64,000 nt of DNA from NCBI RefSeq assembly GCF_007993035.1, contig NZ_VOOS01000002.1:124001-188000 (forward strand), read 5' to 3'. The notes under the pieces were generated by a model. It saw only the letters and a program-made list of their open reading frames with translations. It searched no databases and was not told where the DNA came from. This document shows, in pieces, positions 2,457 through 51,190 of this stretch. The position numbers and the translations under genes were made by a program. The DNA comes from Vicingus serpentipes. GTDB taxonomy: Bacteria > Bacteroidota > Bacteroidia > Flavobacteriales_E > Vicingaceae. The stretch's first letter is position 1, and each line of letters begins with the position of its first letter.

Positions 2457-4574
2457 TTAAATTTTAACTCCAATTACACAAACATCATCAATTTGTGCTA
2501 AAGAGCCTCTCCAAGTTTCAAATGCTTCATCTATGATAGTCTTTTGTTCTTCCATAGTTTTATCCTGAATGCTCAGTAATAAATCTCTAAAAGCTTTTAC
2601 TTTAAATTTCTTTCCTTTCTCACCACCAAATTGGTCTATATAACCATCTGAGAAGATATACAAGCTGTCTCCTTGCTGTAAATCAAAACTATGCGTTGTA
2701 TAAGGTTCTGGATTATCAAATTTACCTATTGGCTGTTTGTTAGCTTTAGTTTCTATTATCTCACCATTACGTATAATCCATAAAGGATTGTGTGCTCCAG
2801 CATATTGTAGTTTATTTCCTTCAAGACTACATAATGCTATATCCATACCGTCCTTTACATCTTCTTCAGACTTCTCAAACTCTTGAATTACAATATCCCT
2901 TGCTTTATCTAGGATTTCCCCAGGATCTGTTAAGCCATATTCTCTAACGGCTCTATTAAGACCATTATTACAAACTACAGAAACCATAGCTCCTGGAACT
3001 CCATGCCCTGTACAATCTGCAGCTGCAAACAGTATTTTATTATTTTTATGCTCCATCCAATAAAAATCTCCTGCTACAACATCTTTAGGTTTATAAAAAA
3101 TAAAAGATTCTTGCAAATATTCTTTTACTAGTTTAGATGATGGTAATATCGCATTTTGAATACGTTTTGCATAAGTTATAGAATCTTTAATTTCTTGGTG
3201 AGCCATCTCTACAACTTCTTTTTGTTGTTCAATAACTTTTTTTTGCTTTCTGGTAACTTTTAATCTGTTCATTACAAAAATTGAAAAGATAGCAACCAAA
3301 CCTAGTAAACAACCTGTAGCATAAGTAATTACTTGTTGTTTTGCTTTAGCTTCTTTTTCTACTTCTAATTGTTTTTCATTGAAAGCATCATCAATTGTCT
3401 TTTGTTTTTCATATTCATATTTTGCTTGTTGTTGAATAGTTACTTTTTGATTTTCTTTATTATTGATACTATCACGCATTTGAATATGTAGCTTAAACAT
3501 GTCTAAAGCTTTCATTCCTTCTCCCTGTTTTTTATAAATATCACTACAAATCTCTGCTGCTGTTTTCAGTTTATCGGGTTGTCCGATTTCTTTAGCAATT
3601 TTAAAAGCTTTTAATGCATATTCTTTTGCAATATTTAATTTCCCTTGAGAAAGATAAATTTTACTAATATTAGTTAATGAAGTTACAAGCCCTTTAGAAT
3701 TTCCTATTTTATTGCTAATTTCTAAGCTTTTCATATTATATTTTAGGCTACTTATAGTATCTTCTTTCCTTAAGTAAATCCTACCAATATTAGTAAGTGA
3801 TATTGATATACCTGCTTGATGTTCTAATTCCTCTTTAATTTTTAAACTTTTACTATAATAACTCAAAGCCTGATCTATATCTCCTTTTTTCTCATAGGCT
3901 GTACCTATATTATTCAAAGCATGTGCTTGACCTTTTAAATCATTGATTTCCGTATAAATTTCTATACTTTTTTGATAATAATCTAAAGCTTGATTTATAT
4001 TATCTTGATTTATATAAATCATACCTATATTATTGAGAGAGGTAGCTTTTCCCTTTTTATCATTAAGTTTTTCTCTTTTCCTTAAACTTAAATGATAAAA
4101 CTCTAAAGCTTTTAAAATATCCCCTTGATCTTCATAAATGGCTGCCATATTATTTAAGGCACTTGCAATACCCTTTTGATCTCCGGCTTCAACTAAAAGC
4201 TGTAAGCTTTGATTATAATATTCTAAAGCTATTGAAATCTCTCCATGTTTAGAGTATACATAACCAATATTGTTAATTGAACCAGCTAGAGATTTAAGTA
4301 AGCTTTTTTTTACTTTTGAGGAATTATTTTTTAATAAAGCTTTCTCTGCGATTAGTTTTGAATTTTCACATAGAGGAATAATGGTATCAAGATTACTTAC
4401 ATATAATATTTCACTTAAACTAAGCCATGCTCCAGCTAATGAAGTATCATGACTATTCTTATTGTATACAATATCATAAAGAGAATCTAATTTATTATTG
4501 CTTTTCACACTATAACTTTGAGTAAAGCTCTTTAAGCATGAAAGCATTAATATTATGTAAATAAAGTGTTTGAT
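2457..4574 (-). CDS. TPR sensor - membrane helix - SpoIIE/PP2C phosphatase (paralogue 1)
   Basis: 705 residues if started at ATC 4574, the aligned position in its paralogues. ATG 4547 gives 696 residues with a shortened signal sequence. Order: signal peptide (ends near SFTQS), about seven TPRs with NNIG-type helices, coiled coil, membrane helix (~416-437), short coiled coil, SpoIIE-type PP2C phosphatase (last ~222 residues). The phosphatase has metal and core motifs VAGDFYW, AAADCTGHGVPGAMVS, DGMDIALC, FSDGYIDQ and IDDVCVIG. Inferred topology: periplasmic TPR, cytoplasmic phosphatase. It probably dephosphorylates a Ser/Thr-phosphorylated partner such as a STAS protein. It is last of three same-strand paralogues and begins 59 bases after paralogue 2. 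Confidence 0.9.
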   Translation of the reverse strand: MKHFIYIILMLSCLKSFTQSYSVKSNNKLDSLYDIVYNKNSHDTSLAGAWLSLSEILYVSNLDTIIPLCENSKLIAEKALLKNNSSKVKKSLLKSLAGSINNIGYVYSKHGEISIALEYYNQSLQLLVEAGDQKGIASALNNMAAIYEDQGDILKALEFYHLSLRKREKLNDKKGKATSLNNIGMIYINQDNINQALDYYQKSIEIYTEINDLKGQAHALNNIGTAYEKKGDIDQALSYYSKSLKIKEELEHQAGISISLTNIGRIYLRKEDTISSLKYNMKSLEISNKIGNSKGLVTSLTNISKIYLSQGKLNIAKEYALKAFKIAKEIGQPDKLKTAAEICSDIYKKQGEGMKALDMFKLHIQMRDSINNKENQKVTIQQQAKYEYEKQKTIDDAFNEKQLEVEKEAKAKQQVITYATGCLLGLVAIFSIFVMNRLKVTRKQKKVIEQQKEVVEMAHQEIKDSITYAKRIQNAILPSSKLVKEYLQESFIFYKPKDVVAGDFYWMEHKNNKILFAAADCTGHGVPGAMVSVVCNNGLNRAVREYGLTDPGEILDKARDIVIQEFEKSEEDVKDGMDIALCSLEGNKLQYAGAHNPLWIIRNGEIIETKANKQPIGKFDNPEPYTTHSFDLQQGDSLYIFSDGYIDQFGGEKGKKFKVKAFRDLLLSIQDKTMEEQKTIIDEAFETWRGSLAQIDDVCVIGVKI
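4572..4574 (-). promoter_or_regulatory. Proposed AUC start codon, paralogue 1
   Basis: ATC followed by AAACAC (K-H) and the hydrophobic core. The frame is closed by TAA at 4614-4616, and no ATG, GTG or TTG lies between that stop and ATG 4547. The upstream ATATTAGCTGT resembles the same position in paralogues 3 and 4. Confidence 0.55.
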
Positions 4575-4633
4575 ACAGCTAATATAGTAAATCCAAATGA
4601 ACTTTTGTTTTGATTATTATAATTGACTATTGG

Positions 4634-6802
4634 TTAAATTCTAACACCAATAACACAGACATCATCAATTTGTTCTAGATTTCCTTTCCAAGCTTCAAAA
4701 GCATCATCAATAATTGCTTTTTGTTTCTCCATAGATTTATACTGAATACTGAGTAATAAATCTCTAAAAGCTTTAGCCTTGAATTTCTTTCCTTTTTCTC
4801 CACCAAACTGGTCTACATAACCATCAGAAAAGATGTAGATTGAATCTCCTTGCTCTAAATCAAAACTATGTGTTATATAAGGCTCAGGATTATCAAATCT
4901 TCCAATAGGTTGTTTATTAGCTTTAGTTTCTATTATCTCACCATTACGTATAATCCATAAAGGATTGTGTGCTCCTGCATATTGTAGTTTATTTCCTTCT
5001 AAGCTACATAATGCTATATCCATCCCATCTTTAATATCTTCTTCGGATTTATCAAACTCCTGAATAACAATCTCTCTTGTTTTATTTAATATCTGTCCAG
5101 GGTCTGTTAATCCATATTCTCTAACTGACCTATTTAAACCATTGTTACAAACAACACTTACCATAGCTCCAGGAACTCCATGTCCTGTACAATCTGCTGC
5201 TGCGAAAAGTATTTTATTATTGTTATGCTCCATCCAATAAAAATCTCCTGCAACTACATCTTTAGGCTTGTATAGGATAAATGATTCTTTTAGGTATTTT
5301 TTAACCAGTTTAGTTGGTGGTAATATAGCATTTTGAATACGCTTAGCATAGGTAATAGAATCCATAATTTCTTGATTCTTTTCTTCTAACTCAGCATGAG
5401 CTTCTTCAACAACTACCTTTTGCATTTCAACCTCTTGTTTTTGAGTTTCAATTACCAGTTTTTGTTGTTTGGTAATTCTAAGTCTATTAAATACAAAGAT
5501 TAAAAAAATAACTACCAAACCTAACCCCCCTGTAGTAGCTAATGTTATTATTTGTTGCTTTTCTTTTTCTTCTTTTTCTATAGCTATGAGTTTAACATGT
5601 TCTGCATCATCAACAACTTTTTGTTTTTCATATTCGTATTTTGCTTGTTGTTGTGCTGATGCTTTTTGGGTTTCTTCATTGTTTAAACTATCTCGCATTT
5701 GAATATAAAGCTTGTACATTTCTAATGCTTTTAACGCACTCCCTTTTTTCTCATATAATTCACTTAAAATGAAGGCCGAGGCTTTAATTTTTTTAGGGGA
5801 CCCAATTTCTCTTGCTATTTTTAAACTTTGTGTTATGTAACCTTGTGCATCGTGTAAATTATTTTTAATTAATAAAACCCCTCCAATATTATTCATAGAT
5901 GTTGCCATTCCTTGCCAATCTCCAATTTCCTCTTTAATTTTTAAACTTTTTTTATAAGTAACTAACGCTTTATCATAATCTTCCCATTTTTTATATACTC
6001 CAGCTATATTATTTAAAGAGACAGCTATTCCTTTCCTATCCTTAATCTCCTCTCTTATAACTAAACTCCTTTTAAAATAATCTAACGCTGCAGATAAATT
6101 TCCTTGATCATCATAAAAAACCCCAATATTATTAAGACTAACAGCTATCATTTTCTTATTTCCAAATTCTTCTCTAATAGCCAAACTTTGCTGGAAATAC
6201 TCTAATGCTTTTTCAAAATCTCCTTGACTATTATAAATAAAACCTAAATTATTGAGTGAATATGCAATCCCATTTTTATCGTTTATTTCTTCGTTAATAA
6301 CTAAGCTTCGGTGGTATGATTTTATTGCTAAAGGTATATCTCCTTGATTTACATAAATATATCCTAGATTAATTAAAGCTACGGCTATTCCTTCCTTATC
6401 TTTAATTTTTTCTTTTATAGCTAAGCTTTTCAAAAAATATTTTATAGCTTCAGAAGCACTGCCTTTACTATTATATACAGCTCCAATGTTGTTAAATGAA
6501 TTTGCTACTACATTCAATAAGTTAAGTGTTTTAGGATTTAACTTGTCAGGTAAAGAAGTTTTTTTAAAAGAATTATAAGAGATTAAAATAGCTTGTTTAC
6601 ACAAATTTATTACAGTATCTTGATTAATAGAGTAAAACAATTCTGACAATTGCAAATATGAAGCTGCTATTGAGGTGTCGGGGCTATTTTTGTTATTTAT
6701 TACATTGCTTAAACTATCAACAAGATGCTGCTCCTCATTATTAAATTGAGCAATTCCCTTTATTGAGATTAGAAATAATGATATGCAGATTATGTGTTTG
6801 AT
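4634..6802 (-). CDS. TPR sensor - membrane helix - SpoIIE/PP2C phosphatase (paralogue 2)
   Basis: 722 residues from ATC 6802; the first canonical start (TTG 6655) would remove 49 residues, including the whole signal peptide (IKHIICISLFLISIKGIAQ). An in-frame stop (TAA, 6815-6817) lies only four codons before the ATC. Domains: signal peptide, about six TPRs, coiled coil, membrane helix ~418-440, long coiled coil, phosphatase ~501-722 with AAADCTGHGVPG, DGMDIALC, FSDGYVDQ and IDDVCVIG. It starts 24 bases after the stop of paralogue 3, so the two are probably cotranscribed. The phosphatase half is nearly the same as in paralogue 1; the TPR half is not. Confidence 0.88.
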   Translation of the reverse strand: MKHIICISLFLISIKGIAQFNNEEQHLVDSLSNVINNKNSPDTSIAASYLQLSELFYSINQDTVINLCKQAILISYNSFKKTSLPDKLNPKTLNLLNVVANSFNNIGAVYNSKGSASEAIKYFLKSLAIKEKIKDKEGIAVALINLGYIYVNQGDIPLAIKSYHRSLVINEEINDKNGIAYSLNNLGFIYNSQGDFEKALEYFQQSLAIREEFGNKKMIAVSLNNIGVFYDDQGNLSAALDYFKRSLVIREEIKDRKGIAVSLNNIAGVYKKWEDYDKALVTYKKSLKIKEEIGDWQGMATSMNNIGGVLLIKNNLHDAQGYITQSLKIAREIGSPKKIKASAFILSELYEKKGSALKALEMYKLYIQMRDSLNNEETQKASAQQQAKYEYEKQKVVDDAEHVKLIAIEKEEKEKQQIITLATTGGLGLVVIFLIFVFNRLRITKQQKLVIETQKQEVEMQKVVVEEAHAELEEKNQEIMDSITYAKRIQNAILPPTKLVKKYLKESFILYKPKDVVAGDFYWMEHNNNKILFAAADCTGHGVPGAMVSVVCNNGLNRSVREYGLTDPGQILNKTREIVIQEFDKSEEDIKDGMDIALCSLEGNKLQYAGAHNPLWIIRNGEIIETKANKQPIGRFDNPEPYITHSFDLEQGDSIYIFSDGYVDQFGGEKGKKFKAKAFRDLLLSIQYKSMEKQKAIIDDAFEAWKGNLEQIDDVCVIGVRI
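6800..6802 (-). promoter_or_regulatory. Proposed AUC start codon, paralogue 2
   Basis: Reading TAA AAA AAT AAC TGC ATC AAA CAC, the ATC is the only near-cognate start between the stop codon and the signal-peptide core. This is the most constrained of the four cases. Confidence 0.65.
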
Positions 6803-6826
6803 GCAGTTATTTTTTTAAGTGTATTA

Positions 6827-8824
6827 TTAAATCTTAACTCCAATTACACAGACATCATCAATCTGTTCTAAAGAGCCTCTCCAAGTTTCAAACGCTTCAT
6901 TTATGATAGTTTTTTGTTCTTCCATAGATTTATCCTGAATGCTTAATAATAAGTCTCTAAACGCTTTTACTTTAAATTTCTTTCCTTTCTCACCACCAAA
7001 TTGGTCTACATACCCATCTGAGAAGATATAGATTGAATCTCCTTGCTCTAAATCAAAACTATGCGTTATATAAGGTTCTGGGTATTCAAATTTACCAATA
7101 GGTTGTTTGTTAGCTTTAGTTTCAATTAATTCTCCATTTCGAATAATCCATAACGGATTATGTGCTCCTGCGTATTGTAGTTTTTTTCCTTCTAAAGAGC
7201 ATAAAGCAATATCCATCCCATCTTTAACATCTTCTTCGGATTTATCAAACTCTTGAATAACAATTTCTCTAGCTTTATCTAGAATTTGTCCTGGGTCTGT
7301 AAGACCATGTTCTCTAACCGCTCTATTAAGACCATTATTACAAACAACAGAAACCATAGCTCCTGGAACTCCATGCCCTGTACAATCTGCAGCTGCAAAT
7401 AATACTTTGCCATTTTTATGTTCCATCCAATAGAAGTCTCCTGCAACAACATCTTTAGGTTTGTACAAGATAAAAGATTCTTGTAAATATTCTTTTACAA
7501 CTTTGTTAGATGGTAAAATTGCAGATTGAATACGCTTAGCATAAACAATACTATCTTTAATGTCTTGGTGTGCTTCTTCTACAATTTCTTTTTGCTGTTG
7601 AATAACTTGTTTTTGCTTTTTAGTTACTTTAAGCCTATTTAAAACAATGATTAAAAAGATTGCTAACAATCCTAAAACAATAGTTATAGCAATACTAATA
7701 ATTCGTTGCTTTTCTTTTTTCTCTTTCTCTAAAGCTAAATTTTTCTCATATTGAATATCATCTATTTCTTTACTTTTTTCATACTCATATTTGGCTTGTA
7801 AGTTTGCGCTAGTTTTCAAAGCACTCAAATTGTTTAAGCTGTCACGCATTTCAATTTCAAGCATATGCATTTCAAAAGCATTTAGCCAGTCCTTTTGTTT
7901 TTGAGCAACTTGCCTTAAAATAGATGCAGATTTTTCAATTAATTCAGGAGACCCAATTTTGTTTGACAATTCTAAAGCTTCAAGTCCTTTTTGTTTTGCT
8001 CCTAAAATATTATCATCAATAATATTAATTCTACCTAAATTACATAAGCTTAAAACAATACCTTTAGAATAGTCAACTTCTTGGTAAAGTTTAAAGGCTT
8101 TTTGGTAGTTTAGTTTAGCTTTTTCTATATCGCCTTGCTCATAATAAAACGTACCAATATTATTATAAGAATAGCCACTTCCTTTTTTATCATCAATTTC
8201 AATTCTAATTTCAAGCGCTTTTTGGTAGTAGCTAAGTGAAAGTTCATTCTTTTTCTTCACTTTATATATGTAGCCCATGTTGTTATAGGTAGATGCAATT
8301 CCTTTTTTTTCTCCAATAATACTTAATTGCTCCACAGATTTAGAGAAGTATTTAAGAGCCAAGTCTAGGTTGTCTAACGTATTATGAATTACTCCAATAT
8401 TATTATATGTGGCAGCCATACCAAATTTATCATCTATTTCCTCCTTAATTTTAAGTGATTGATGATAAAACTTTAAAGCTTCTGATACTTTACCTTTTCT
8501 ATTATTAATAAAACCTAAGTTGTTTAACGCTCCTGCTATACTTATTTTAAGATTTTTTTTTGTTGTTAAAGAATAGTTTTTCTTCAAGGCATCTTCACCA
8601 ATTTGAACAGCTTTTTTGCATAAAGGAATAATTGTATCTAAATTAGAAATATATAAATATTCACTTAGGTTAACATAAGCTGTTACTAATGATGTATCCA
8701 AACTATTAGGATTTGCTATAACAGAATTTAAGCTATCTATTTGGTATTGTTCTTCTTTAGTAAAATTTTGACATACTCCATTAAAAGAGATGAATATTAA
8801 TAATATGGAGATGAAGCGTATAAT
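6827..8824 (-). CDS. TPR sensor - membrane helix - SpoIIE/PP2C phosphatase (paralogue 3)
   Basis: 665 residues from ATT 8824. The first canonical start is TTG 8701, which lies after the signal peptide (ISILLIFISFNGVCQ) and 41 residues in. Domains: signal peptide, about five to six TPRs, coiled coil, membrane helix ~375-397, phosphatase ~444-665 with the same metal motifs as its paralogues. It heads the leftward run paralogue 3 - 2 - 1. The bases after its stop (TTTTAAGTGTATTATTAAAT as seen on the plus strand at 6813-6832) also flank paralogue 1 at 2443-2462, which marks one duplication edge. Confidence 0.88.
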   Translation of the reverse strand: MIRFISILLIFISFNGVCQNFTKEEQYQIDSLNSVIANPNSLDTSLVTAYVNLSEYLYISNLDTIIPLCKKAVQIGEDALKKNYSLTTKKNLKISIAGALNNLGFINNRKGKVSEALKFYHQSLKIKEEIDDKFGMAATYNNIGVIHNTLDNLDLALKYFSKSVEQLSIIGEKKGIASTYNNMGYIYKVKKKNELSLSYYQKALEIRIEIDDKKGSGYSYNNIGTFYYEQGDIEKAKLNYQKAFKLYQEVDYSKGIVLSLCNLGRINIIDDNILGAKQKGLEALELSNKIGSPELIEKSASILRQVAQKQKDWLNAFEMHMLEIEMRDSLNNLSALKTSANLQAKYEYEKSKEIDDIQYEKNLALEKEKKEKQRIISIAITIVLGLLAIFLIIVLNRLKVTKKQKQVIQQQKEIVEEAHQDIKDSIVYAKRIQSAILPSNKVVKEYLQESFILYKPKDVVAGDFYWMEHKNGKVLFAAADCTGHGVPGAMVSVVCNNGLNRAVREHGLTDPGQILDKAREIVIQEFDKSEEDVKDGMDIALCSLEGKKLQYAGAHNPLWIIRNGELIETKANKQPIGKFEYPEPYITHSFDLEQGDSIYIFSDGYVDQFGGEKGKKFKVKAFRDLLLSIQDKSMEEQKTIINEAFETWRGSLEQIDDVCVIGVKI
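8822..8824 (-). promoter_or_regulatory. Proposed AUU start codon, paralogue 3
   Basis: ATT preceded by ATATTAGCTAT, the same context as ATC in paralogue 1. The frame has a stop (TAA) about six codons upstream, and no ATG, GTG or TTG until 8701. Confidence 0.55.
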
Positions 8825-8981
8825 ATAGCTAATATAATAATTTTAGAGGATATTATACTTACTCTTAATAATTAGACATAAAATACAATAAGTACTTCTA
8901 AGATAAAGCTTAAATCTTAAACATAATTAACTGCCTGATATAAAATATCAAAATATTACAACAGTTTATTTAAAGTGAATT

Positions 8982-9179
8982 TTACTTGTCTTTACAATTA
9001 CAACCATTAGATACATAATTATCTACTTGGTCATTATAATCAGATGATTTTTCAAAATCATCCTCACATAAAGTTGCATTTGGCAAGTCTTTACATCCTG
9101 TACATTCTTTACAATTATTTTTATTGCATGAAATTGTTAGTATACAAACTAATATTGTTGGAATAAATATCTTTAACAT
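8982..9179 (-). CDS. Small cysteine-rich lipoprotein, unknown
   Basis: 65 residues. A lipoprotein signal ends at Cys18 (ILTISC). The mature part carries a cysteine cluster (C23, C26, C29, C38) and a C-terminal CNCKDK. The CxxC spacing suggests metal binding or disulfides. No family was recognised. It lies between two TPR-SpoIIE genes on the same strand, so a link to that sensor system is possible but unproven. Confidence 0.65.
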   Translation of the reverse strand: MLKIFIPTILVCILTISCNKNNCKECTGCKDLPNATLCEDDFEKSSDYNDQVDNYVSNGCNCKDK

Positions 9180-9320
9180 AATTTATCATTTTTTATAAAT
9201 TTAAGTTTCATTATGCTAAGAATGAATCTATATTATTAATCTCATTAATATGTTTTTAAACTATTAATTTAAAAAAACTCAAATACCTTATAAAATAAGT
9301 TGTAATAATTCAATTTCTTA

Positions 9321-9328
9321 TATTTTTG
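9321..9328 (+). promoter_or_regulatory. TAnnTTTG promoter element before the gene at 9353
   Basis: TATTTTTG lies 24 bases before the TTG start at 9353 and supports that start over the internal ATG (residue 37). Confidence 0.45.
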
Positions 9329-9352
9329 TAAACTATCTATAAAAACAACACA

Positions 9353-9727
9353 TTGGGAAAGCTTAAAATATTTTCAAAATTATTACTGGTTCAGTTTAAA
9401 ACTAGGTTCAAGAAAGCTCAAGTTTATGAAATACCAAGATGTGGTGTTTCTTTTACAAAAATGAGCAAATTGGCTGCTGAAGCTAAAGGAATTAAAATTG
9501 TAAAAGACCAGGATACTAAAGCATCTACTTTTAAAGTAACTGCTAAAGCTCCCGAAATTATTTTAGGGTTGGTTTCTCAAATGGGCGAAATTGTTGTGCC
9601 TAACATCAATGCTCCTAGTAAAAAAGATCAGAAAAAACTAAGTGAACTAGGTGCTTATATTAAACAATTACAACCACTAATGAAAGACCTTGATCTTTAC
9701 CAACAAGCTTCTACTTTAATGAAGTAA
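9353..9727 (+). CDS. Conserved-looking small basic protein, unknown
   Basis: 124 residues from TTG 9353; no ATG precedes the conserved-looking body. The sequence is basic and soluble: an amphipathic N-terminus (MGKLKIFSKLLLVQFKTRFKK), an alpha/beta-like middle (IKIVKDQDTKASTFKVTAKAP), and a helical C-terminus. No membrane segment, signal peptide or known motif was seen. It reads against the surrounding signalling genes. The upstream TATTTTTG element supports expression from this start. Confidence 0.55.
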   Translation: MGKLKIFSKLLLVQFKTRFKKAQVYEIPRCGVSFTKMSKLAAEAKGIKIVKDQDTKASTFKVTAKAPEIILGLVSQMGEIVVPNINAPSKKDQKKLSELGAYIKQLQPLMKDLDLYQQASTLMK

Positions 9728-9737
9728 CCCATTAAGA

Positions 9738-10190
9738 TTAGGGCAACTTAGTGTTGAAGTTCAAAATCTGTAGTTTAGTTATTATCGAAGTATCGATAGG
9801 TATTATTGTAATGGAGTTATTTTCAGAAATACATTTTTCTTTTGCACAACTTAAATTGACCATGCCTTTTTTAACTCCATTATTTTGTTCAGCAAGGTTA
9901 AACCATACAAAATAATGTACTCTGTACTTCTTGCTCCAAAGCATTTTTTGTGCAATTATTAGGCGCTCTACAAAATAATGTACTCTGTACTTCTTGCTCC
10001 AAAGCATTTTTTGTGCAATTATTAGGCGCTCTGTTGTTACAATAATTTTACAGTTATTAAATACAGTTGTTTGAGGTCCATTACCGTAAGATTCAACCCT
10101 TGTTTTATCTACTTCCAACAATACCTTCTCTTCCATCCCAAGTTGAGCATCCTTCAAATAAAGGACTTTAAATAATTCTAAAATCGACAT
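9738..10190 (-). CDS. PH/GRAM-like domain protein with internal 21-residue duplication
   Basis: 150 residues. The core (IIVTTERLIIAQKMLW, then KYRVHYFVWFNLAEQ) resembles bacterial PH-like or GRAM-like beta domains ('TxxRLI'). Residues ERLIIAQKM...HYFV (21 residues) occur twice in tandem because of a perfect 63-bp DNA duplication. Without it the protein would be ~129 residues. The extra copy would add a beta hairpin in the domain core and may disrupt the fold. It ends 13 bases upstream of TPR-SpoIIE paralogue 4's stop side, on the same strand. Confidence 0.65.
   Translation of the reverse strand: MSILELFKVLYLKDAQLGMEEKVLLEVDKTRVESYGNGPQTTVFNNCKIIVTTERLIIAQKMLWSKKYRVHYFVERLIIAQKMLWSKKYRVHYFVWFNLAEQNNGVKKGMVNLSCAKEKCISENNSITIIPIDTSIITKLQILNFNTKLP
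9907..10032. repeat. Perfect tandem 63-bp direct repeat
   Basis: Bases 9907-9969 and 9970-10032 are identical (each begins ACAAAATAATGTACTCTG and ends TTAGGCGCTCT). The unit length is divisible by three, so the host frame stays open. Perfect identity implies a very recent event or an assembly artefact. Confidence 0.95.
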
Positions 10191-10202
10191 TTTTTAAAAT
10201 AA

Positions 10203-12176
10203 TTATATTCTAACTCCTATCACACAAACATCATCAATCTGTTCTATAGCACCTCTCCATTCTTCAAAGGTTTCATCAATAATGGTTTTCTGTTGCTCCA
10301 TAGTTTTATCTTGAATACCTAGCAGTAACTCTCTAAAAGCTTTAGCTTTAAATTTCTTACCTTTCTCTCCACCAAATTGATCTACGTATCCATCCGAGAA
10401 GATATAAATGGTATCTCCTTCTTGCAAATCAAAAATATGGGTTGTATAGGGTTCTGGATTATCAAACTTCCCTATAGGTTGTTTATTTGCTTTGGTTTCG
10501 ATTATCTCATTGTTCCTAATAATCCATAACGGATTATGAGCCCCTGCATATTGAAGCTTCCATCCACTAAATTCTTGCTTCAAACTACACAAAGCGATAT
10601 CCATACCATCCTTTACATCTTCTTCCGACTTTTCAAATTCTTGAATTACAATTTCTCTTGTTTTGGTAAGAATTTCACCCGGATCTGTTAATCCATATTC
10701 TCTAACACTTCTATTTAAAGCATTGTTACAAACAACACTGACCATAGCTCCCGGAACACCATGTCCAGTGCAATCTGCAGCGGCAAATAAAACTTTTCCA
10801 TTAGTATGCTCCATCCAGTAAAAATCTCCCGCCACTACATCCTTAGGTTTGTACAAGATAAATGATTCTTCGAGGTATTCTTTTACTAGTTTTACAGGGG
10901 GCAAAATTGCCGATTGAATTCGCTTTGCATAAGCTATACTATCGGTTATTTCTCTGTTTTTTTCTTCTACTATTATTTTTTGCTGATAAATAATTTCAGC
11001 ATCTCTTTTCTTTAAAACATAACTACGAACAATTGCAATAATAAATCCTGCAGCTAGAATTAAGATAACGATTAAAATAAGGGATTGTTTGTTCTTGGTT
11101 TCAATTTCTAGCTCTTGCTTGTCTAATTCTACTTGTTTAATTTCAAGTTCGTAGCCATGCCTTTCGTTAGATAATTGAGCCTCTAAATTAGATATATTAG
11201 CTGCCGATAATAAAGAAGCTTGCTCTTTATCTAATTCCATGTATTTTTCTAAATGCATTAAAGCCAACTTGTAGTTGGTATTGTTTTTATAAGCTTCAGC
11301 TAAAAAGTAATTTATATCCTTTATTTCTTTTTTAGCTTCTAAATCTTCTACAACATTTAAGGCTTCTTTTCCTAATTCTATTGCTTGCTCAATTTTATTG
11401 TTTTTTAAATATCCACGAGCTAAATGGATAGTGCTAAAAGCTTTTAATTGAATGTTATCTGTAGGTACAGCATCGTATGCTTTTCTAGCGAAAACAAATG
11501 CAGAATCATTATCTTCTTTTACTGTATATGAGTTAGATAATAGTAAATAAAGCCTATTTAATTGAATTGAATCATTTGCTGAAATAATATCCTTTTCAAT
11601 GGCTTTAAACTTTTTTATCGCTTGCTCTAAATTACCTTTATGTTGTGTTAATTCAGCATCCCCCATTTTTGCCTTAATCAACAACTTTTTCATATCAAAT
11701 TTAGTGGCATGCTTTATCAATTTTGTAATGTAATCTTCAGCCTTAACAAGGTCGTACTGTATTTGATTAATCCAATAAGCTATAAAGTAAGCATCTCCAA
11801 TAATTAAAGGGTATAAAATATGATCTTCTTTGTTCTCTAATATTTTTAATATATGAACTAAATAGGTAAATGACTCATCAAAATCAGCTTCTACCGCTAC
11901 ATAAAACCTCATTAATTGATGATTTAAATAAACCTCTTGAGTAAAACTTAAGTTAGGTTTTTGTAACTGCTTTTTAGTGAAGTCAATAAAATCGTTTTTC
12001 TCACTTCCATAAAGCGGAGTTTTTAGTACTTCATTTATTAACTCTTTATTCTTTGTCGCACTTGCCTCTTCAATTTTATTAATATTTTTGTTAAATAACT
12101 CATTGATTAACGAATCATTTTGGCTAAACCCATTAAAGGAGATTAGAAAGAGAAATATGTAGATTAAGTTTTTGAT
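10203..12176 (-). CDS. TPR-like sensor - membrane helix - SpoIIE/PP2C phosphatase (paralogue 4)
   Basis: 657 residues from ATC 12176. The first canonical start, ATG 11912, would discard 88 residues including the signal peptide (IYIFLFLISFNGFSQ). The frame stays open upstream only to TAG 12198-12200. The sensor half has degenerate TPRs and diverges most from the other three. A membrane helix lies at ~364-385, then a coiled coil, then the phosphatase (~432-657). The phosphatase has a four-residue insertion (KQEFSGWKLQYAG) before the AHNPLW motif. Metal motifs are intact. It is followed closely on the same strand by the PH-like gene. Confidence 0.88.
   Translation of the reverse strand: MKNLIYIFLFLISFNGFSQNDSLINELFNKNINKIEEASATKNKELINEVLKTPLYGSEKNDFIDFTKKQLQKPNLSFTQEVYLNHQLMRFYVAVEADFDESFTYLVHILKILENKEDHILYPLIIGDAYFIAYWINQIQYDLVKAEDYITKLIKHATKFDMKKLLIKAKMGDAELTQHKGNLEQAIKKFKAIEKDIISANDSIQLNRLYLLLSNSYTVKEDNDSAFVFARKAYDAVPTDNIQLKAFSTIHLARGYLKNNKIEQAIELGKEALNVVEDLEAKKEIKDINYFLAEAYKNNTNYKLALMHLEKYMELDKEQASLLSAANISNLEAQLSNERHGYELEIKQVELDKQELEIETKNKQSLILIVILILAAGFIIAIVRSYVLKKRDAEIIYQQKIIVEEKNREITDSIAYAKRIQSAILPPVKLVKEYLEESFILYKPKDVVAGDFYWMEHTNGKVLFAAADCTGHGVPGAMVSVVCNNALNRSVREYGLTDPGEILTKTREIVIQEFEKSEEDVKDGMDIALCSLKQEFSGWKLQYAGAHNPLWIIRNNEIIETKANKQPIGKFDNPEPYTTHIFDLQEGDTIYIFSDGYVDQFGGEKGKKFKAKAFRELLLGIQDKTMEQQKTIIDETFEEWRGAIEQIDDVCVIGVRI
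12174..12176 (-). promoter_or_regulatory. Proposed AUC start codon, paralogue 4
   Basis: ATC preceded by CCTTAGCTAC and followed by AAAAAC (K-N). No ATG, GTG or TTG occurs in frame between TAG 12198-12200 and ATG 11912. Confidence 0.6.
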
Positions 12177-12269
12177 GTAGCTAAGGTAATAAATTAACTA
12201 CACTCCCCTACTAACTTATAGCTAGACATTTAATCAAAAAATGACAAATGATTTATGTAAATTAGTAGA

Positions 12270-51006: not shown

Positions 51007-51190
51007 TAAATTTGAAGCATTATTGGTTGTCATAATATTGACATTAATAGGGAATTAGGTGAAAATCCTAAGCTGTACCCGCAACTGTAAACTCTTAAAG
51101 TTTTTACAATGTGCCACTGACTAATCCTCGGGAAGGCGTAAAAATATGGAGTGAGTCAGGAGACCTGCCTTTAATTTTATTAATCTGAGC
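51007..51190 (+). promoter_or_regulatory. Cobalamin (B12) riboswitch and its promoter
   Basis: A TAAATTTG promoter-like box sits at 51007-51014. The aptamer follows, with ATAGGGAATTAGGTGAAAAT, CTGTACCCGCAACTGTAA (B12-box partner segment), GCCACTGA, CTCGGGAAGGCG and the near-invariant GTCAGGAGACCTGCC B12 box (51155-51169). Immediately downstream, CCTTTAATT (51168-51176) can pair with AATTAAAGG (51219-51227), a likely part of the expression switch. It controls the BtuB-like operon; the 350-base gap 50920-51269 holds no gene. Confidence 0.95.

Follow-up and report, generated by a model that had tools for sequence, protein, structure and literature searches.

Proteins that join tetratricopeptide repeat (TPR) sensors to a SpoIIE/PP2C phosphatase domain belong to the PF07228 class. 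Four genes of this kind, called here A to D, lie on the reverse strand of a 64,000-nt stretch of the Vicingus serpentipes genome (assembly GCF_007993035.1, contig NZ_VOOS01000002.1, positions 124,001 to 188,000), which in its whole length is referred to as the window. The domains of their products and the order of these domains are like those of the class, and the genes are unusual only in the start codon and the 5' end: they are likely to start at AUC or AUU, and A, C and D are likely to be transcribed without a leader.

Few non-canonical start codons of bacteria have been characterised by experiment, and the source that states this (PMC5472188) describes starts repressed by initiation factor 3 (IF3), namely AUU in Escherichia coli infC, ATC in Streptomyces infC and GTC in Streptomyces sigR. 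A conserved start other than AUG, GUG or UUG in a signalling or translation gene is common to those cases and to ours. There the weak start serves as a brake on single genes, whereas here we are dealing with a related group of sensor genes, mostly with the spacing of leaderless genes, for which IF3 repression is only a proposal. The non-canonical starts of Staphylococcus aureus cvfC1 (AUU), ccpN (AUA) and infC (AUA) are conserved too, and the reporters tested are described as giving approximately 10-30% of the AUG output (PMC13009471); according to the same source these starts rest on extended Shine-Dalgarno pairing, whereas in A, C and D a leader is probably lacking. In the leaderless mRNAs of mycobacteria and E. 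coli the start codon stands at the 5' end with a promoter box directly upstream, as it would here, but only AUG, and in mycobacteria GUG, is reported to work well at that place (PMC4633059, PMC9031893), where AUC or AUU would have to work in our genes. By the distance of the box A, C and D resemble leaderless genes and B does not; the terminal AUG or GUG that marks leaderless mRNAs is replaced by AUC or AUU, so that A, C and D would depart from the rule established so far. Non-canonical starts and leaderless mRNAs are both known, and it is their combination, kept across sensor genes, that appears new within the open-licence PMC literature, in which we found no paper on conserved leaderless AUC or AUU starts in bacteria. 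Animal mitochondrial mRNAs are leaderless and begin with AUN codons, AUU and AUC among them, but they are read by organelle ribosomes with a modified tRNA-Met and a different code, and no homology is implied.

The 5' ends of genes A to D

The original prediction, made from the letters of the window, had placed the four starts at the codon that opens each signal peptide, and direct reading bore out its details. The codons are ATC (4574), ATC (6802), ATT (8824) and ATC (12176) for A, B, C and D, respectively. The nearest in-frame upstream stops, at 4614-4616, 6815-6817, 8843-8845 and 12198-12200, precede them by 13, 4, 6 and 7 codons, with no ATG, GTG or TTG in between, and the first canonical codons are ATG 4547 (A), TTG 6655 (B), TTG 8701 (C) and ATG 11912 (D). 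Lysine is the second residue in A, B and D, isoleucine in C. The features are as follows.

2457 to 4574, reverse strand: gene A, signal peptide, TPR repeats, transmembrane (TM) helix and SpoIIE phosphatase; 705 codons from the ATC, plus stop; Pfam TPR_12 and SpoIIE over the cut-off
4572 to 4574, reverse strand: putative start codon ATC of gene A, from direct reading and from the aligned start position in relatives
4579 to 4586, reverse strand: TATATTAG, putative promoter box of A (Bacteroidota sigma-A type), 4 nt before the ATC
4634 to 6802, reverse strand: gene B, architecture as in gene A; 722 codons plus stop; ATC at 6802-6800
6827 to 8824, reverse strand: gene C, architecture as in gene A; 665 codons plus stop; ATT at 8824-8822
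8829 to 8836, reverse strand: TATATTAG, putative promoter box of C, 4 nt before the ATT
10203 to 12176, reverse strand: gene D, signal peptide, divergent TPR-like region, TM helix and SpoIIE phosphatase; 657 codons plus stop; ATC at 12176-12174
12181 to 12188, reverse strand: TACCTTAG, putative promoter box of D, 4 nt before the ATC

The SpoIIE domain scored 74-85 bits in all four products (Pfam cut-off 25), and TPR was over the cut-off in A, B and C; D reached 21.6 bits, below the cut-off of 30.1. An export signal and a single TM helix before the phosphatase were judged by eye from the translations. Between C and D, inside an open reading frame (ORF) at 9738-10190, there is a 63-bp perfect tandem duplication (9906-10032).

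Exactly 4 nt upstream of the ATC or ATT of A, C and D stands a TAnnTTAG box, which was absent from the original prediction, as were the likely leaderlessness and the occurrence of such codons in other species. Mapping of transcription start sites in Flavobacterium psychrophilum is reported to place TAnnTTTG at -12 to -5 (PMC9723704), a position at which a box followed by 4 nt would make the first base of the codon +1. With this spacing A, C and D probably give rise to leaderless mRNAs, beginning with 5'-AUC or 5'-AUU. We scanned host DNA and DNA of relatives, the latter chosen for SpoIIE genes or module matches and thus not a random sample, for TAnnTT[ATC]G followed by d bases (d 0-12) and a frame of at least 100 codons. 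Canonical starts were found at d = 4 in 16 of 76 host frames (15 ATG, 1 GTG, 0 TTG) and in 26 of 116 frames of the relatives (20 ATG, 6 GTG, 0 TTG), a share of about 21-22% as against about 7% at most at the other spacings. Seven frames with the box at d = 4, two in the host and five in relatives, have no canonical codon up to codon 25, and all seven carry ATC or ATT; they are genes already contained in the 19 AUC/AUU matches described in the next section. At spacings other than d = 4 the codons of the non-canonical frames were mixed. By the 5' module we mean the box, the start codon and the signal peptide; none of the three homologues with TTG has the box, and no RNA structure was predicted in it (0 pairs). 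Rfam, run on the window at the gathering threshold, gave only a cobalamin riboswitch (51007-51186, 119.9 bits), far from genes A to D.

Such starts are the exception in the host genome (2.92 Mb, a 34-contig draft), which has 31 SpoIIE genes; in the other 27 a canonical codon follows the upstream stop by at most 24 codons. Among 238 ORFs of at least 200 aa in 443.5 kb of host DNA, nine do not reach a canonical codon until 25 or more codons from their beginning, and three of them are B, C and D; A is not included because of the ATG at codon 10, inside its signal peptide. There was no sign of a genome-wide habit of starting at AUC: when we asked for ATC or ATT at box + 4 opening a frame of at least 60 codons, with no canonical codon upstream or within 6 codons, only A, C and D qualified in the 443.5 kb, of which 379.5 kb were chosen for SpoIIE genes or module matches and do not represent a random sample. 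Sites of the form TAnnTTWGNNNNATYAAA number 43 in the host genome, and of the 30 examined, those of A and D alone lead into a frame longer than 56 codons. The original claim of a start at AUC or AUU is well supported by the comparison with relatives, but does not extend to the whole TPR-SpoIIE family, as it concerns four of the 31 host SpoIIE genes. Other host frames with a late canonical codon are a signal-peptide-like frame of 223 codons at L032:13959-14628 (reverse strand), with the first canonical codon at position 44 and CTG at the likely start, and the long frames L034:727-4294 and L038:15240-18534, where it comes 67 and 32 codons in.

The start position in related genomes

A scan of the genome collection, limited to the best 80 of more than 544 loci, yielded more genes that combine this 5' module with ATC, L182 among them. 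Fourteen modules then went into a sequence profile in which the first and third bases of the start codon were masked, and this profile was searched in 46 genomes of the order. There were 76 matches at E<=0.01, and the 30 at E<=1e-4 were all read. At the start position these had ATC (17), ATT (3), ATG (3), TTG (3), GTG (2), and AAA and TTA, with ATG one codon earlier; ATA was found in none of the 30. One ATC match (G040), in a 21-codon frame, is a chance match, which leaves 19 genes or gene fragments (16 ATC, 3 ATT) in nine genomes: the host (G000), G002, G020, G022, G026, G028, G030, G031 and G032. It must be noted that the profile had been built with 12 of the 30 matches; the 18 outside it comprise 7 with AUC or AUU, 10 with a canonical start and the chance match. 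The 10 canonical ones are 7 long frames (650-764 codons) with a similar N-terminus and 3 other proteins (G002:C89, G028:C75, G016:C42). Isoleucine codons within A to D are 161 ATT, 33 ATC and 89 ATA, to be set beside 16 ATC, 3 ATT and no ATA at the start position; the genes being related, these counts do not amount to a test of significance. Three of the 46 matches with E between 1e-4 and 0.01 were read and had GTG, ATG, and ATC in a 39-codon frame. On 395 genomes of the class the profile gave outside the family just weak matches (E 4e-5 to 9e-4), known by score alone.

Two more ATC genes stand outside the 19, the CMB131 gene of L154 (near-copy L169) and a G028 gene with TTG five codons upstream. 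SpoIIE matches number 24-37 per genome in G000, G020, G026, G028, G031 and G032 (2.4-3.9 Mb), many of them in tandem arrays. When all SpoIIE genes of two g9 genomes were inspected (37 in G028, 26 in G020), 13 were flagged by rule, 10 as late and the others as cut or borderline, and of these only G028:C33:38743, G020:C50:35885 and G020:C37:109355 were by eye without a canonical codon before the signal peptide.

The non-canonical start is kept in orthologues. In G002, of the same genus, the orthologue of D (58% identity over the sensor part) has TATTTTAG, then 4 nt, then ATT, with a stop 6 codons upstream, where the host has ATC; the orthologue of A in G032 (probably L182) has, like A, ATC, which directly follows a stop codon. 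An ATG further upstream, which by the original prediction would have counted against it, was present in neither of the two, and was found only in the more distant D orthologue of G024, another genus, where it lies two codons before the aligned isoleucine. By the strict form TAnnTTnG, 13 of the 19 AUC/AUU matches have the box 4 nt before the codon; with either G or A allowed as the last base, 15 of 19 do. A sequencing or assembly error as the source of these codons was rejected because ATC or ATT stands at the aligned position in nine genomes, from different species.

The stretch before the canonical codons evolves like coding sequence in most comparisons of nonsynonymous (dN) and synonymous (dS) divergence: dN 0.67 and dS 2.15 for D vs. 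G002 (codons 2-87), 0.36 and 2.04 for B vs. C (codons 2-40), 0.53 and 1.68 for B vs. A (codons 2-48). D can be aligned with both orthologues (G002 and G024) also in the part that precedes codon 88. In view of this constraint and alignment, initiation at 6655, 8701 and 11912 would pass over conserved protein sequence.

In a tree of 94 SpoIIE proteins, built by a quick method with the start and signal peptide left out and accompanied by long-branch warnings, the AUC/AUU genes cluster without forming one clade, and A with the G032 gene and D with the G002 gene are supported pairs. The 15 AUC/AUU genes on the tree imply no fewer than 6 changes of start type, and well-supported branches force 4 of them; with shuffled labels the mean was 14.0 changes, and 0 of 500 shufflings gave as few as 6. 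One row (G020_L377_p377), automatically flagged AUY, was relabelled canonical because its match is not at the start, and one of the 6 changes may be spurious since G022_L293_p3032, counted as canonical, represents the latter half of an AUC gene that is broken. The tree is compatible with either of two histories: the 5' module may have been gained or moved several times, or it may have been lost to canonical starts several times.

Initiation at AUC or AUU and its alternatives

We found 34 tRNA genes in the host. The sole initiator-type tRNA, recognised by eye from the G-C pairs of the anticodon stem and the unpaired first base, has the anticodon CAU, and both GAU tRNAs are ordinary tRNA-Ile adjoining tRNA-Ala; there is no GAU initiator tRNA among the 34, although in a 34-contig draft a gene may have been missed. 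The gene of IF3 itself was then read:

host genome, contig C1, IF3 match at 149000-149254: infC (L349); further copies in relatives are L350, L351 and L352

In all four full-length copies (G000, G020, G026 and G028; a fifth, in G032, is cut by a contig end) infC has no ATG, GTG or TTG in its first 57 codons, and ATA GCT AA(A/G) AGA TTT is common to the four at the expected N-terminus, thus infC probably starts at AUA. Upstream of it G000 and G026 have a GGAGG stretch, in a phylum mostly without Shine-Dalgarno sites. S. aureus infC, with its AUA (PMC13009471), would be alike in this respect. An infC without a canonical start makes it likely that a weak, IF3-sensitive start exists in this clade, and for the same reason IF3 control of A to D, with IF3-linked low expression, is plausible.

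On balance we consider it probable that A to D start at AUC or AUU, and that A, C and D do so on leaderless mRNAs, and plausible that a weak, IF3-sensitive start keeps the sensors scarce. A number of observations weigh against this. Gene B has no box at the usual spacing and its ATC lies 24 nt past the stop of C; the G030 gene has no box, and those of G020:C58 and G031 are off-spaced. The coding signal is weak for A vs. G032 (codons 2-49, dN 0.29, dS 0.48) and absent for C vs. A (codons 2-40, dN 0.71, dS 0.76). A canonical codon occurs within the signal peptide of A, G002 D and G020:C58, and an in-frame GTG or TTG 9-11 codons upstream in 3 of the 19 (G028:C33:39697, G020:C58 and G022:C221). 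Only 13 of the 19 have a SpoIIE domain, 12 of them without MORN repeats and one with MORN instead of TPR. The latter, L302:3248-4930 (G020:C37), combines an AUC start with MORN_2 repeats and SpoIIE, and L296:5433-6956 (G020:C58) is a complete 508-codon TPR gene with an AUC start and no SpoIIE; the 5' module thus occurs outside the TPR-SpoIIE pair as well. The frame at G022:C221 ends at 346 codons and has no Pfam match; L297 (G020:C33:106459-106518) is broken after 46 codons and L293 (G022:C147) after 103, either by decay or by an assembly error, and the G030 gene and one G028 copy are cut by a contig end. Genes with an upstream GTG or TTG, broken copies and cut copies were all kept in the count of 19. 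The broken copies suggest that decay occurs in the group, and the likeness of the 5' modules could come partly from recombination.

The literature on leaderless translation points the same way. In Mycobacterium smegmatis a trial of every one of the 64 codons in the leaderless position is reported to have left only ATG and GTG as functional, and ATC was the negative control of the leaderless reporter test (PMC4633059); non-AUG leaderless starts are described as poor in E. coli (PMC9031893). In the members of the phylum that have been studied most mRNAs carry a leader: the leaderless share is given as 5.5% in F. psychrophilum (PMC9723704), 87% of leaders are over 10 nt in Flavobacterium johnsoniae (PMC6847099) and about 3.7% under 10 nt in Bacteroides thetaiotaomicron (PMC7366714); a further source mentions reports of many leaderless mRNAs in Bacteroidetes (PMC5397173), unlike these three transcriptome papers.

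If A to D were translated from their first canonical codons, listed above, the proteins would lack an intact signal peptide. These four codons exist, and the failure of non-AUG leaderless starts in other bacteria would favour their use, but the residues before them are conserved in the D orthologues and coding-like in most pairs, the ATG, GTG or TTG of homologues stands at the aligned ATC position and not downstream, and every such start removes or cuts the signal peptide; we regard this as very unlikely. It is also improbable, if somewhat less so, that A to D are silent or decaying copies without a start codon, a recombination reservoir for tandem paralogues. Such a role would agree with the tandem array and the very similar phosphatase domains (88% aa identity between A and B), with the two of 19 copies broken within 103 codons and a third ending at 346 without a recognised domain, and with the tree, where the start type must have changed 6 times or more and 4 of the changes are forced. 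The four window frames are, however, intact at 657-722 codons, most stretches show a dN lower than dS, the orthologues of A and D retain the non-canonical codon, the box has its exact spacing in 13-15 of 19, and the codon is ATC or ATT yet never ATA.

It is conceivable, and to our mind rather doubtful than improbable, that translation starts at AUC or AUU on mRNAs that do have a leader, the box not being the promoter used and the genes being reached by operon read-through, re-initiation or an A-rich leader. B, without a box and 24 nt behind C, A, 60 nt behind B, and the G030 gene without a box would fit this well, as would the leaders reported for most flavobacterial mRNAs (PMC6847099, PMC9723704). 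Against it stands the exact 4-nt spacing in 13-15 of 19, which is that of leaderless-type ATG and GTG genes and is not seen at other spacings; nor can a tandem neighbour explain D, as there is no frame of at least 150 aa on the same strand within 1.2 kb upstream. Translational read-through from C into B was rejected, because three in-frame stops separate the end of C from the ATC of B. Finally, a GAU anticodon would read precisely AUC and AUU, and AUA is absent from the position, which would suit a special initiator tRNA with this anticodon, or initiation with isoleucine; since the sole initiator-type tRNA among the 34 is CAU, both GAU tRNAs are ordinary tRNA-Ile, and homologues have ATG or GTG at the same position, we give this hardly any credence.

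A proposed mode of initiation and its meaning

In the start at AUC or AUU that we favour, the ordinary initiator tRNA (CAU) would read the codon opening each signal peptide. For A, C and D the promoter box would set the transcription start on the A of AUC or AUU, and the ribosome, probably as the 70S particle, would bind the 5' end of the resulting leaderless mRNA and initiate there weakly. B, in an operon behind C, would be translated from its AUC either with a leader on the mRNA or through re-initiation. The predicted products are exported TPR sensors with a membrane helix and a cytoplasmic SpoIIE-type phosphatase, and the weak start would most likely keep them scarce and sensitive to IF3. 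The codons, the stops, the spacing of the box, the conservation among relatives, the coding constraint ahead of the canonical codons and the domains come from the sequences themselves; from these we infer the transcription start, initiation at the codon, low output and IF3 sensitivity.

A wider rule, by which leaderless and leadered initiation would differ in the codons allowed, can be suggested only tentatively, and we are inclined to doubt it: ribosomes of this clade may accept a 5'-terminal AUC or AUU besides AUG and GUG, but not UUG, and a mobile 5' module made up of box, AUC and signal peptide may have spread this start among sensor genes, whose dosage would then depend on IF3 or on free 70S ribosomes. 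The exclusion of UUG would agree with the absence of TTG from the 192 frames at leaderless spacing and with the three TTG homologues without a box; acceptance of AUC and AUU would mean that the third base escapes the check that it undergoes on leadered mRNAs.

Gene finders limited to ATG, GTG and TTG would misplace these starts, drop the signal peptide and hide an exported sensor. The 19 genes or gene fragments in nine genomes, mostly with exact spacing, would be a natural system for the study of 5'-terminal codon recognition and of the role of IF3 in it.

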